From Candidatus Dadabacteria bacterium (GTDB taxonomy: Bacteria; Desulfobacterota_D; UBA1144; Nemesobacterales; JADFKM01), in NCBI GenBank assembly GCA_022564935.1, contig JADFKM010000009.1:1-44651 (forward strand): a stretch of 44,651 bases of DNA, read 5' to 3'. Both the position numbers and the translations under genes were made by a program. Positions 4,101-35,133 of the stretch are shown piece by piece. Under the pieces are notes generated by a model that was given only the letters and a program-made list of their open reading frames with translations, was not told the DNA's origin and made no database searches. Every line of letters begins with the position of its first letter. Positions within the stretch are counted from its first letter, which is position 1.

Positions 4101-5456
4101 TCCCCGCCGCCTCACCACGACATATACAGCATCGAAGACCTGGCTCAGCTCATCTACGACCTCAAACACGCAAACACAAGGGCCAAGGTCGCCGTGAAGC
4201 TCGTTTCGGAAGCGGGCGTTGGAACTGTGGCGGCAGGTGTGGTCAAGGCCTATGCCGACTTGGTGCATATTAGCGGCCACGAAGGGGGCACGGGAGCGTC
4301 CCCGCTTGGCTCCATGAAGCACGCGGGCATTTCCTGGGAGCTCGGACTTTCAGAAACACAGCAGGTACTTGTCCTCAACGACCTGAGGGGACGCGTGATT
4401 CTCAGGGTGGACGGCGGATTTAAAACCGCTAGGGACGTAGTTGTTGCTGCAATGCTTGGGGCAGAGCAGTACGGCTTCGGCACTGCGGCCTTGGTCGCCG
4501 TAGGGTGCGTTATGGCCAGGCAGTGCCATCTCAACACCTGCCCTGTGGGCGTGGCCACACAGAAGCCGGAACTGCGGGCGAAGTTCCAGGGCACCCCGGA
4601 GAACATGGTCAATTATTTCACGGGCATAGCCATGGGAGTGAGGGATATTCTGTCCCAGCTAGGGTTTAGGAAGCTTGAGGAGGTCATAGGTAGGGCCTAT
4701 TTGCTCAAAGTCCGCTCTGACATCGAGCTGCCCAAGACCTCGAACATTGACCTAGGGGCGGTGCTCGCTGACGCCGACCCCGACGACACTAGACCCCGCT
4801 ACCATATGAAAGAGCGCAATGACAGGGCGGACGCCCCGCTCGACAACGTCATACTCCAGGACGCCATGGATTCCATCGCCGGAGTCCAGTCCGTAAAGCT
4901 CAGTTACCCCATTACGAATGAGAACCTCACCGTCGGGGCGATGCTTGCCGGGGAAATCGCATACCGCTACGGGGATAAGGGCCTCCCGCCCGGCATTACC
5001 ATAGAGGTGACCTTCAAGGGCACCGCGGGCCAAAGCTTCGGCGGGTACGGCTTGAGTGGTATGAGGCTCGTGCTCGAAGGCGACGCAAACGACTATGTGG
5101 GCAAGAGCATGCACGGCGGAGTAATAATCATAAGGCCCCCGGATGGGAGCAAATTTGAAACACATGAAAATGTCATTTTGGGCAACACGGTGCTCTACGG
5201 CGCTACGGGCGGCGAGCTCTATGCCGCCGGATGCGCGGGTGAGAGGTTCGGTGTGAGGAACAGCGGCGCTAGAGCGGTGGTCGAGGGCCTGGGTGACCAT
5301 GGCTGCGAGTACATGACAGGCGGTGTCGTGGCGGTTATAGGGGAGACCGGAAGGAACTTTGCGGCCGGTATGACGGGCGGCCTGGCCTTTGTTCTGGACG
5401 AAGACGGCTCGTTCCCCAGTAAATACAATCCCGAGCATGTGGGAATAAACAGGTGA
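1143..5456 (+). CDS. gltB: Glutamate synthase large subunit, main open frame (ends at an in-frame TGA)
   Basis: GltB makes glutamate from glutamine and 2-oxoglutarate and pairs with the reductase subunit GltD, which is not in this window. GTG at 1143 follows an AGGAG about 10 bases upstream. Domains in order: a short propeptide, the catalytic Cys21 (NEHDA then CGVGF) of the class II glutaminase, the central linker domain (about 470-760), the FMN/TIM-barrel synthase domain (about 800-1180) with the 3Fe-4S cysteines C1122, C1128 and C1133 in CVMARQCHLNTCP, and the GXGXG beta-helix (about 1230-1430). The frame meets TGA at 5454, yet recognisable GltB sequence continues in the same frame to 5726 (see next entry). 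All catalytic and cofactor residues precede the stop, so a shortened protein might still work. Confidence 0.93.
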   Translation: MRNRIQHKKLLYNPLNEHDACGVGFVADISGEKSHYIVELAIECVIKLTHRGAVDADAKTGDGAGILTQIPKKLFKRVVQEMGCGGVSEADIAVGMIFLPSSDPLAKERCKTIVEEVISSYDLGFYGWRKVPIDPHVLGDKALDTKPEIFQVLIGRAPGTTDDEFERTLYLARKKMERHVVRNKIEEFYIPSLSHKTIVYKGLLVAPQLRRFYLDLKDPDFQSSLAVFHQRYSTNTFPNWYLAQPFRIIAHNGEINTLRGNINWMRAREPELHSEVWKDKMRKLLPVIQEDGSDSACLDNMLELLVQSGRDIRHSMMMLIPEAYEKMADMDPELRGFYEYHSCLSEPWDGPASVVFSDGVIVGASLDRNGLRPARYVVTDDGIVIMGSEVGMVDVEPSKVVEKGRLGPGKMIAVDTENRVLLKNDEIKSYFAKRRAYADWVEQNMFRTEGLGLISSWSDVGGMDEVELIKLQKAFGYSLEDIERILEPMATNAKEPVGSMGDDTPLSVLSTRPQLLYTYFKQRFAQVTNPPIDSLREQVVMSLSTSIGPRKSILEETPEHAKVIKFPTPILNNEELKWLRGFNALNFSCAEISILFNAADGPGAMEGALQSVCRLASEAIDSGKTILVLSDKGVDGEKAPIPALLAVSAVHHHLIRKGKRKNTSIIIETGEAREDHHFACLLGYGASLINPYLVYESVANMIRRSNGISVTRALENYRTSAEKGILKIMSKMGISTVASYRGAQIFEAIGISKSVIDQYFTGSESRIEGIDLDCMAVDVLRLHGAAFAEEKASLIEKGYFRFRKTGEYHALNPTVFKALHKVAETGSYEDYQAFEKAVDSTPPIGIRDLLEFKEGVPVPLEEVEPIEAVLKRFVNPGMSYGALSAEAHETIAIGMNRLGGKTCSGEGGESPARFHRRQNGDWPNSLIKQVASGRFGVTPEYLASAKEIEIKMAQGSKPGEGGQLPGIKVTPEIAEVRYSIPGVTLISPPPHHDIYSIEDLAQLIYDLKHANTRAKVAVKLVSEAGVGTVAAGVVKAYADLVHISGHEGGTGASPLGSMKHAGISWELGLSETQQVLVLNDLRGRVILRVDGGFKTARDVVVAAMLGAEQYGFGTAALVAVGCVMARQCHLNTCPVGVATQKPELRAKFQGTPENMVNYFTGIAMGVRDILSQLGFRKLEEVIGRAYLLKVRSDIELPKTSNIDLGAVLADADPDDTRPRYHMKERNDRADAPLDNVILQDAMDSIAGVQSVKLSYPITNENLTVGAMLAGEIAYRYGDKGLPPGITIEVTFKGTAGQSFGGYGLSGMRLVLEGDANDYVGKSMHGGVIIIRPPDGSKFETHENVILGNTVLYGATGGELYAAGCAGERFGVRNSGARAVVEGLGDHGCEYMTGGVVAVIGETGRNFAAGMTGGLAFVLDEDGSFPSKYNPEHVGINR

Positions 5457-31845: not shown

Positions 31846-32577
31846 TCATATTATCATGCCGCCTCCATCAACGAACAGGACCTCACCAGTGATGTAGTCC
31901 GATTCGATCAAGAACTGCACGGCCTTTGCCACATCGGCTGGCGAGCCGGGCCTCTTTAGAACAGTCTCCTCTATAACGGCGTTTTTCTCATCCGCTGTGT
32001 AGTCTTCGGGGAACATCACTGGCCCCGGCGCCACTGCGTTTACCTGCACATCGGGGGCCATAGCCTTGGCCATCCCCTTTGTAAGCATTATAAGGCCCGC
32101 CTTTGAAACACAGTAGGGTATATAGCTCTTCCATGCTCGTACTCCCCCGACGTCTGCGATATTGATGATCTTGCCTGCACCGTGGGAGAGTAGGTGCTTG
32201 GCAGCTTTCCGGGAGCAAAGGAAGGGGCCTTTGAGGTTGGTTTTCATGAAAGCGTCCCAGTCGTTCTCGCTGAGCTCAAAAAAGTCCGTCTTGTAAAAAA
32301 TGGCGGCGTTGTTTATCAGCACATCAAGCCTGCCGAAATGCCCTATTGCGGTTGTGATCATGGCTTCGACGTCTTGGGCGTTTGAAACGTCCGCCTTGAT
32401 GGTAAGAGCGTCTCTCCCCAAGTCGCTGATTTCCCTTGCGACCTGTTGGGCTTGCTCGTGTGAAGTTTTGTAGTTGAGCGCAACGTGAGCGCCCAGCTTG
32501 GCAAGGTGAACTGCAATCTCCCTTCCCACCCTTCTCGCTCCACCCGTTACGAGAGCCACTTTGTTTTCGATGTCCAT
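31846..32577 (-). CDS. Short-chain dehydrogenase, pteridine-reductase-like
   Basis: The 243-residue Rossmann enzyme has the cofactor motif VTGGARRVGREIA (TGxxxRxG, typical of NADPH-using pteridine reductases), DVLINNAA, and the YxxxK pair Y155 and K159. The usual catalytic Ser 13 residues before Tyr is Asp142 here (INIADVGG), exactly as in PTR1 and FolM, where Asp-Tyr-Lys form the active site. That makes reduction of dihydropteridines or dihydrofolate a better guess than ketoacyl-ACP reduction. It begins 107 bases after the ThiF-family gene end on the same strand and may be the last gene of that set. ATG at 32577. Confidence 0.85.
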   Translation of the reverse strand: MDIENKVALVTGGARRVGREIAVHLAKLGAHVALNYKTSHEQAQQVAREISDLGRDALTIKADVSNAQDVEAMITTAIGHFGRLDVLINNAAIFYKTDFFELSENDWDAFMKTNLKGPFLCSRKAAKHLLSHGAGKIINIADVGGVRAWKSYIPYCVSKAGLIMLTKGMAKAMAPDVQVNAVAPGPVMFPEDYTADEKNAVIEETVLKRPGSPADVAKAVQFLIESDYITGEVLFVDGGGMII

Positions 32578-32683: not shown

Positions 32684-33508
32684 TTAGCCCGGTATAGGGG
32701 TTCGTTTGGGCTCGTAGCCCGGCTGCTCGTACCTTTCGATCTTGTGAATTGAGGGGTTTTCGCCGCATAGGAGGCATCCGGGGTCTTTATTGATATTCAC
32801 CTCTGTAACATGCATCGGCAGGGCGTTGAACACGAGAAGCCTGCCCTCGAGGGTCGTTCCGATTTGCAGCACTTCTTTCAGGGCTTCAAGCGCCTGGATA
32901 GTGCCTATAATTCCCGCTACAGCCCCCAGGATTCCCGCCTCCTGACAGCTTGGGATCATTCCCACAGGCGGGATCTCGGGGTACAGACACCTGTAACACG
33001 GGCCTCCGGCGTGGGTCTTGAACACGGAAACCTGACCCTCGAAGCCGAGGATGGCGCCCGAAACGAGGGTCTTTTTCTCGAAATAGCATGCGTCGTTAAG
33101 CAGGTAGCGTGTGGGAAAGTTGTCGGAGCCGTCGATCACAATGTCGTAGCCCCTCAAAATATCCCTGATGTTGCGCTCGGTGATAAGCTCTTCATAGACG
33201 TTGACTTTAATGTCGGGGTTTAGCTGCTCCAGTTTTTCTTTTGCGGAATGGGTTTTTAGTCTTCCGATATCGTTTGTGTAGTGGAGCACCTGCCGCTGGA
33301 GGTTTGATATGTCTACCCTGTCTGAGTCCGCAACGCCAAGCGTTCCCACGCCTGCTGCGGCCAGATATAGCGCTATAGGAGAGCCCAGTCCGCCTACGCC
33401 CAGGCAAAATATCTTTGAGCATAGCAGCCTTTCCTGTCCCACTCCTCCGACTTCGGGCAGGAGTATGTTTCTGCTGTATCTATAAATTTGGTCTTCGGTC
33501 AGTTCCAC
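32684..33508 (-). CDS. ThiF/MoeB/HesA-family adenylyltransferase (carrier activase)
   Basis: This E1-like enzyme adenylates the C-terminal Gly of ubiquitin-like sulfur carrier proteins (MoaD, ThiS, CysO). The 274 residues include YSRNILLPEVGG, the ATP loop LGVGGLGSP (about 36-44), DRVDISNLQRQ, IVIDGSDNFPTRYLLND, zinc cysteines C171, C174, C245 and C248, and a conserved C188 in SCQEAG, equivalent to the MoeB/ThiF loop cysteine. No rhodanese domain is attached. GTG start has AGGAG 9 bases upstream. It follows the JAMM peptidase gene after 13 bases and CysM beyond, the context seen for cysteine formation with a protein-bound thiocarboxylate. Confidence 0.9.
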   Translation of the reverse strand: MELTEDQIYRYSRNILLPEVGGVGQERLLCSKIFCLGVGGLGSPIALYLAAAGVGTLGVADSDRVDISNLQRQVLHYTNDIGRLKTHSAKEKLEQLNPDIKVNVYEELITERNIRDILRGYDIVIDGSDNFPTRYLLNDACYFEKKTLVSGAILGFEGQVSVFKTHAGGPCYRCLYPEIPPVGMIPSCQEAGILGAVAGIIGTIQALEALKEVLQIGTTLEGRLLVFNALPMHVTEVNINKDPGCLLCGENPSIHKIERYEQPGYEPKRTPIPG

Positions 33509-33521
33509 TGTTTCGTTTCTC

Positions 33522-33935
33522 CTAAGTTCCGTTGACTTCGAATTGGATTTCAGAAAAAGGCGAGTCCGGGTCGTTGAGAACCCATGCGCGGGCGTTGTTG
33601 AAGCTCCTGTTATTAACGGAAACGATCAGGTAAACCCACTCCGGCCATGCCCTCATCCTGTCTGTCTCAGAAGGCAGCGATGGGTGATCGGGGTGTGAGT
33701 GGTATATTCCCATGATGTTCATATCGCGCTCTCTGGCCCAATCGTCGGCCTCTTTAAACGAGAGCGGGTCCAGCTCGTACCTGTCGCGGGCCCTCTCGGT
33801 GTTTAGATTCCTGCACTCCTTAAAAGTTGCAATCTCGCAGCCGTTTCCGATAAGGACTCCGCATATCTCATATGGGTAGCCCGACTCGGAGTGCTTAATT
33901 ATACCCTCGTATGCCGATTTTGTTATAGTTACCAC
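33522..33935 (-). CDS. JAMM/MPN+ metallopeptidase (M67 family, Mec-like)
   Basis: In the known CysO pathway (mycobacteria), a JAMM peptidase releases cysteine from the carrier protein after CysM has attached it. This 137-residue protein keeps all metal and acid residues: E23 (PYEICG), H79 and H81 (YHSHPDHP), S89 and D92 (SETD). GTG 33935 is preferred over TTG 33938 since GGAGG (33946-33942) is then 6 bases away. The 3' end of the cysM gene (stop at 33929) overlaps this start by a few bases, and the activase gene follows 13 bases downstream. The size and motifs fit a single-domain bacterial Mec-type enzyme. Confidence 0.9.
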   Translation of the reverse strand: MVTITKSAYEGIIKHSESGYPYEICGVLIGNGCEIATFKECRNLNTERARDRYELDPLSFKEADDWARERDMNIMGIYHSHPDHPSLPSETDRMRAWPEWVYLIVSVNNRSFNNARAWVLNDPDSPFSEIQFEVNGT

Positions 33936-34876
33936 CAAAGACCTCCACTAAGATACCTGTACCCGCCGTCTGGAAGCAGCGCAACAAGAACTCCATGCTC
34001 AAGAGCTCTGGCGCGCTCGAGCGCGGCGTGTATGACAGCGCCTCCCGAATGTCCGATGAACAGTCCCTCTTTGTGCAGGACGTCCTTCATAACGGCGTAA
34101 GATATGTCGGTTTCTACGCCAATGATTTCATCGGGGAGCTCGGGGTCATAGATCCCCGGAATGATGGAAGTGGCCATGTGCTTCAGCCCTTCGAGACCGT
34201 GGAGGGCCTCGGCAGGCTCAATGGCCAATATTTTTATGTCTTCATTGTATTCCTTAAGCCGTTTCCCAGTGCCTACTATAGTCCCGCTGGTGCCCATACC
34301 GGCGAAAAAATGGGTAATCCTCCCCTGGGTCTGGCTCCATATCTCCGGGGCGGTCGATTCGTAGTGAGACCTGGGATTGGCGGGGTTGTTGTACTGGTCG
34401 GGCATGTAGTACTTGTCGGGGTTTTGCTCCTTAAGCCTTCTGGCGTCCATGATTGCGCCGTCGGAGCCCTCGAGGGGATCGGAGTATATGACGTTTGCGC
34501 CAAAGGCCAAAATCGTCTTTTTCCTCTCGATGTTCACATTGGCGGGCATTACCAGGTCCAGCTCGTATCCGAGGGCGGCGCAAATCAGGGCATACGCAAT
34601 GGCCGTGTTGCCGGAGGAAGAATCAATAACCACTTTATCACTGGTCAGCTTCCCGGAGCGTATCCCCTCCAGTATCATCCAGAGCGCGGGACGGTCTTTG
34701 ACAGAGCCTCCGGGGTTAAACCACTCGGCCTTTACGTATACCTCTACTCCGGGGCTTATCCCTTCAGTCATTTTGTGAAGTTTTATCAGAGGGGTGTTGC
34801 CTATTAAATCCAGTATCGACTCGACCCTATTAGCCTTGGAGCCCTCCCGTGTCTTTTCCTGTGTAACTGTGTTCAC
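33929..34876 (-). CDS. Cysteine synthase-family PLP enzyme (CysM-like)
   Basis: A fold-type II PLP enzyme of 315 residues that would form cysteine from O-acetyl- or O-phosphoserine. PLP binds K60 in NPGGSVKDRPA; the substrate loop is DSSSGNTAIAYA; the phosphate loop is GMGTSGTIVGTG, and GHSGGAVIHAA closes the cofactor pocket. The C-terminal tail (LVALLPDGGYRYLSGGLWW) is extended and hydrophobic; in CysO-dependent CysM a C-terminal tail closes over the active site, so this is suggestive. GTG start overlaps the TAG of the TusA-like gene by one base, and its end overlaps the JAMM gene, so all four are one transcript. Confidence 0.9.
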   Translation of the reverse strand: MNTVTQEKTREGSKANRVESILDLIGNTPLIKLHKMTEGISPGVEVYVKAEWFNPGGSVKDRPALWMILEGIRSGKLTSDKVVIDSSSGNTAIAYALICAALGYELDLVMPANVNIERKKTILAFGANVIYSDPLEGSDGAIMDARRLKEQNPDKYYMPDQYNNPANPRSHYESTAPEIWSQTQGRITHFFAGMGTSGTIVGTGKRLKEYNEDIKILAIEPAEALHGLEGLKHMATSIIPGIYDPELPDEIIGVETDISYAVMKDVLHKEGLFIGHSGGAVIHAALERARALEHGVLVALLPDGGYRYLSGGLWW

Positions 34877-35133
34877 TAACGGCGCTCTATAAGCAATTTG
34901 TAGAAATTAAGGTCTTTTTCATTGTCAAGCTCGAGTTTGTTAAGCTCAATAATCTTGTGTCCCTCTTCCTTTATGCTTCTCGGCACGTTTATAAGCGGCT
35001 CGCCTTCACGGAGAACGACTTCCAGGATTTGACCCGACTCCATGGTTTCGAGCTTCAGCTTGGTCTTTACGAAGGTCATGGGACAGATGTCTTTCGTTAT
35101 GTCGATTTTTTGGTCCGGTGTGTATGATTCCAT
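34876..35133 (-). CDS. TusA/SirA-like sulfur carrier protein
   Basis: The 85-residue protein has the small TusA fold: strand IDITKDICPMTFVKTKLKLE, helix, the strand GQILEVVLREGEPLINVP and the helix-strand SIKEEGHKI. The persulfide cysteine is C17, in CPMT in place of the usual CPxP. TusA-like proteins carry sulfane sulfur to biosynthetic partners. Here it is the first gene of the TusA-CysM-JAMM-ThiF set, where a Gly-Gly-ended ubiquitin-like carrier would be expected; it has no such tail (ends LLIERR). It may supply sulfur to this pathway. ATG 35133 has only a weak ribosome binding site. Confidence 0.85.
   Translation of the reverse strand: MESYTPDQKIDITKDICPMTFVKTKLKLETMESGQILEVVLREGEPLINVPRSIKEEGHKIIELNKLELDNEKDLNFYKLLIERR

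Follow-up and report, generated by a model that had tools for sequence, protein, structure and literature searches.

A cassette of four genes, tusA, cysM, mec and moeB, in the genome of a Candidatus Dadabacteria bacterium very probably encodes cysteine biosynthesis of the CysO-CysM-Mec type, with the carrier protein CysO encoded on another contig, and it is reasonable to suggest, with somewhat less confidence, that this pathway operates together with TusA as its sulfur donor. The cassette lies in a window of 44,651 bp, which is the whole stretch of DNA analysed; the genome it comes from is 1.99 Mb long and 88.6% complete. The assignment draws on gene content, intact motifs, the presence of CysO and co-occurrence across genomes, from which we infer the chemistry, the protein interactions and the donor role of TusA.

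Organization of the cassette

The four co-directional genes occupy 2450 bp of the minus strand and are followed by a gene for a reductase:

34876..35133, minus strand: tusA-like gene, 85 aa, CPMT active-site motif (Pfam TusA, E 7.8e-17)
33929..34876, minus strand: cysM-like gene for a PLP-dependent cysteine synthase, 315 aa, C-terminus GGLWW (Pfam PALP)
33522..33938, minus strand: gene for a Mec-like JAMM metallopeptidase, 138 aa, HSHPDHPSLPSETD (Pfam Prok-JAB, 80 bits)
32684..33508, minus strand: gene for a MoeB/ThiF-like E1 adenylyltransferase, 274 aa (Pfam ThiF, 267 bits, E 2e-79)
31846..32577, minus strand: gene for an SDR-family reductase downstream of moeB (Pfam adh_short_C2)

The end of tusA shares 1 bp with the start of cysM, the overlap between cysM and mec is 10 bp long, and 13 bp separate mec from moeB, coordinates that confirm an earlier note on this DNA in describing the four genes as overlapping or abutting. 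The same note had pointed out that a Gly-Gly carrier is absent from the cluster, which holds for the cluster itself and its surroundings, as the ORFs overlapping the 444-bp gap upstream of tusA are all 41 aa or shorter. No known RNA element was matched in the region at the gathering threshold, promoter and terminator scans of the region gave nothing above chance, and a Pfam scan of six genes of the window, within the cluster and next to it, turned up none for sulfate assimilation. The SDR-family reductase is probably a conserved neighbour outside the pathway; in the moeB-less cassettes of family f8 its gene comes straight after mec. In one genome of the set (G026) cysM and mec are separated by an inserted ORF, TnpB-like as judged by eye (L147:4716-5888).

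Conservation of TusA with CysM and Mec

Cassette-type TusA is present in 38 of the 43 genomes of the order, and the cassette CysM and Mec are confined to exactly these 38. CysM was counted as cassette-type at an identity of 62% or more (in G009 and G037 its gene is divided between contigs), and Mec at an E-value of 6e-20 or better, with the next best match at 1.7e-10. The five genomes without the cassette are G001, G012, G019, G020 and G038, with G012 and G038 being only 74% and 59% complete, and the joint loss of the three genes reflects few independent events, perhaps two to four. Within the same class, four of 14 genomes of family f8 have TusA, each with the gene order tusA-cysM-mec-SDR and no moeB, and the f8 genomes retaining these genes are about 1 Mb in size. 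The linkage of tusA, cysM and mec, kept across the order and again in another family of its class, exceeds chance, so TusA is not merely an unconserved neighbour, a possibility that the earlier note had raised against its own reading. Most of the named relatives found in genome_contigs bear the label Candidatus Dadabacteria or Thermodesulfobacteriota.

The CPMT motif, in place of the CPxP of the family, was read in 53 of 53 locus copies from the order and class, some of which are overlapping loci of one genome. The motif noticed earlier is thus real, although it is normal for this TusA subfamily and gives no sign of a new role; as a marker of new function it was ruled out because it is subfamily-wide. 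TusA proteins with CPMT also occur in unrelated alphaproteobacterial contexts (Rhodospirillales), among unrelated housekeeping genes, the search for loci outside the order having used a CPMT-containing seed and being therefore biased for the motif there. On a Sumerlaeota contig (L049:2254-2508 and following) a CPMT TusA is paired with a rhodanese-less MoeB, at a locus that yielded no relative of cysM or mec.

The carrier protein CysO

The genome of the window possesses a Gly-Gly ubiquitin-like carrier related to CysO and unlinked to the cassette. The only PF02597 match above the cut-off (contig C95, E 4.8e-15) is a protein of 90 aa with the C-terminus SIIPAIAGG (L007:6434-6706), whose best PDB match is CysO of M. 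tuberculosis (3dwg_C, E 2e-19) and whose gene overlaps with its start the 3′ end of thrC. The suggested absence of a carrier with a C-terminal Gly-Gly is consequently wrong for the genome, and of the two options offered earlier, a distant CysO, ThiS or MoaD and a TusA that has taken over sulfur delivery, the former proved correct, with a CysO gene located elsewhere and the same operon found in relatives.

Of the 38 genomes of the order that bear the cassette, 36 have a full-length match to PF02597 in a protein of the length of CysO. In G024 the copy is read for its first 51 residues, up to the contig edge, and in G036 (83% complete) the PF02597 search gave only a spurious match. All four cassette-bearing f8 genomes have CysO, as do nearly all other genomes of that family. 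The proteins read from 30 genomes of the order, including the five without the cassette, are all CysO-like with thrC adjoining; the cysO-thrC adjacency runs across the order (L007:6434-6706; loci L085-L113).

AIAGG stands at or near the C-terminal end of every full-length CysO that was read. In families f2, f3, f7 and f8 many copies have one to four residues past AIAGG, and one has about twenty; such extra residues (e.g. L102, L106, L158) would need trimming before activation, for which a JAMM peptidase is possibly responsible. CysO also occurs without the cassette, being retained in G001, G012, G019, G020, G038 and most of f8, and therefore probably has a further role. Within about 3 kb of cysO in the window's genome there are a rhodanese-like (SseA-type) ORF (L007:3541-4386) and a SufE-like ORF (4521-4949), both named by eye, which could supply sulfur.

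MoeB, MoeZ and Mec

The cassette E1 matches the ThiF domain only and has no rhodanese domain; its best PDB relatives are ThiF and MoeB of E. coli, and it carries two CxxC motifs and the PSCQEAGI cysteine. This rhodanese-less MoeB is found in 21 genomes, all belonging to families f1, f2 and f7. The other 17 cassette-bearing genomes (f3, f4, f6 and G039) have no cassette moeB, and TusA is retained in all of them; inspection by sequence revealed no moeB beyond mec in G039 (L154), G008 (L155), G026 (L147) and G011 (L150). The distribution of TusA follows that of CysM and Mec, not that of MoeB; being kept in the 17 moeB-less cassettes, TusA is therefore more than a substitute for an absent rhodanese domain.

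Fourteen of these 17 genomes possess another full E1 of the ThiF family, mostly in a frame of near 389 aa, and those copies whose protein sequence was read carry a fused rhodanese domain (MoeZ) with an intact CxxGxRS loop. The window's genome also encodes such a MoeZ (C48, L144:2298-3446). The idea that the cassette MoeB is a recent truncation of MoeZ was unsupported, the two forming separate clades (support 0.997 and 0.982) in a tree that took in eight cassette MoeB copies. The JAMM motif of Mec (HxH...SxxD) is intact in the window and retained in all copies read.

CysM and its serine substrate

The best NCBIfam match of the cassette cysM is TIGR01138, at 346.9 bits against a curated cut-off of 394.2, and the PLP lysine is conserved. 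In all 39 distinct cassette CysM copies Lys occupies the position aligned to Arg220 of M. tuberculosis CysM, which we take to bind the phosphate of O-phosphoserine; CysM of E. coli, an O-acetylserine enzyme, has a basic residue at this position too, and the Lys therefore does not settle the substrate. The M. tuberculosis reference sequence was verified over its whole length against PDB 3dwg/3dki. The C-terminus WW is found in 38 of the 39 distinct copies, whereas the M. tuberculosis enzyme has a longer tail with LWA at its end.

Serine acetyltransferase (CysE) exceeds the NCBIfam cut-off in 12 of the 43 genomes, 11 of which are cassette-bearing; none above the cut-off was found in 27 of the 38 cassette genomes or in any of the 17 without cassette MoeB. 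Going by gene content, the absence of CysE fits an O-phosphoserine route in the genomes concerned, short of proving it. The window's genome itself has CysE on contig C51 and a second cysteine synthase (PALP) on contig C85, which weighs against the reading proposed below.

Proposed pathway and the role of TusA

In the proposed pathway the C-terminal Gly-Gly of CysO would be adenylated by MoeB or by the separate rhodanese-fused MoeZ, and a persulfide on the CPMT cysteine of TusA would provide the sulfur of the CysO thiocarboxylate, directly or via MoeB/MoeZ. CysM would then combine the thiocarboxylate sulfur with an activated serine, probably O-phosphoserine, into CysO-Cys, from which Mec would cleave cysteine, regenerating CysO. 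TusA is a likely sulfur donor in this scheme on comparative grounds, and it is best read as an extra feeder of sulfur, not as a replacement of the carrier.

A rather unlikely alternative is that TusA is co-transcribed for historical reasons and serves tRNA thiolation, molybdenum cofactor or Fe-S synthesis, with the cysteine pathway making no use of it. TusA of E. coli is indeed multifunctional (PMC5372717), and no cysM or mec was found near the CPMT TusA genes of Rhodospirillales; against this, the window's genome has no TusA exceeding the Pfam cut-off other than that of the cassette, no relative of this TusA was found elsewhere in the genomes without the cassette, and the linkage persists in f8 even at a genome size of about 1 Mb. 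It is improbable that the TusA persulfide feeds cysteine synthesis directly, passing sulfur to CysM or CysO without a rhodanese, a handover which, if true, would account for TusA going with CysM and Mec and not with MoeB. Least probable of all is the earlier suggestion that TusA replaces CysO, its persulfide being the direct sulfur donor to CysM: tusA does come first in the cassette and follows CysM and Mec rather than MoeB, and the gene for CysO lies apart from the cassette and persists in cassette-less genomes too, but nearly every cassette-bearing genome has a CysO with AIAGG, a Mec-type JAMM peptidase would lack an obvious substrate without a Gly-Gly carrier adduct, and the M. tuberculosis precedent uses CysO.

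Comparison with known systems

The resemblance to CysO-CysM-Mec with an activase, which had been proposed from the cluster alone, is supported by the gene content, the intact motifs and the presence of CysO, here unlinked. The Mec-CysO-CysM system of M. tuberculosis, together with MoeZR, which sulfurates CysO in Mycobacterium (Voss et al. 2011, PMC3227635), shares with the cassette a CysM or CysM-like cysteine synthase, a JAMM peptidase and an E1-like activase, and the carriers have similar C-termini (AVAGG and AIAGG). In the window's genome, by contrast, CysO lies with thrC, the cassette adds a rhodanese-less MoeB and TusA, and its CysM misses the long C-terminal extension.

Two operon classes of Iyer et al. 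2006 (PMC1779556) are also related. Row 4c, with an E1-rhodanese, JAB, a Ubl (ThiS/MoaD) and cysteine synthase, likewise unites E1, JAB and cysteine synthase, whereas in the cassette the E1 has no rhodanese, TusA is added and the Ubl is elsewhere. Row 4e comprises an E1 without rhodanese, JAB, a Ubl and sulfate-assimilation genes, and always includes SirA, of the TusA family, which those authors predicted to play the rhodanese role; it shares the grouping of a rhodanese-less E1, JAB and TusA in one cluster, and differs in that the cassette has cysteine synthase in place of the sulfate-assimilation genes and its Ubl on another contig. The cassette thus combines classes 4c and 4e with the carrier detached. 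In E. coli a TusA persulfide leads to the MoaD thiocarboxylate with a rhodanese-less MoeB (2017 review, PMC5372717), a relay similar to the one proposed here in that TusA would feed a Ubl thiocarboxylate, although its product is molybdopterin instead of cysteine and neither a JAMM peptidase nor CysM takes part. The cassette was not found described in the open literature on TusA with CysO, or on TusA with JAMM, thiocarboxylate and cysteine synthase.

By its predicted gene products, the cassette represents a variant CysO-type pathway to cysteine, and it illustrates how a carrier believed to be lacking from an operon can just have its gene in another part of the genome. The sulfur source for the CysO thiocarboxylate was stated to be unknown in the work on Mycobacterium (PMC3227635); a TusA locked to CysM and Mec would be a testable donor for this thiocarboxylate in cysteine synthesis.
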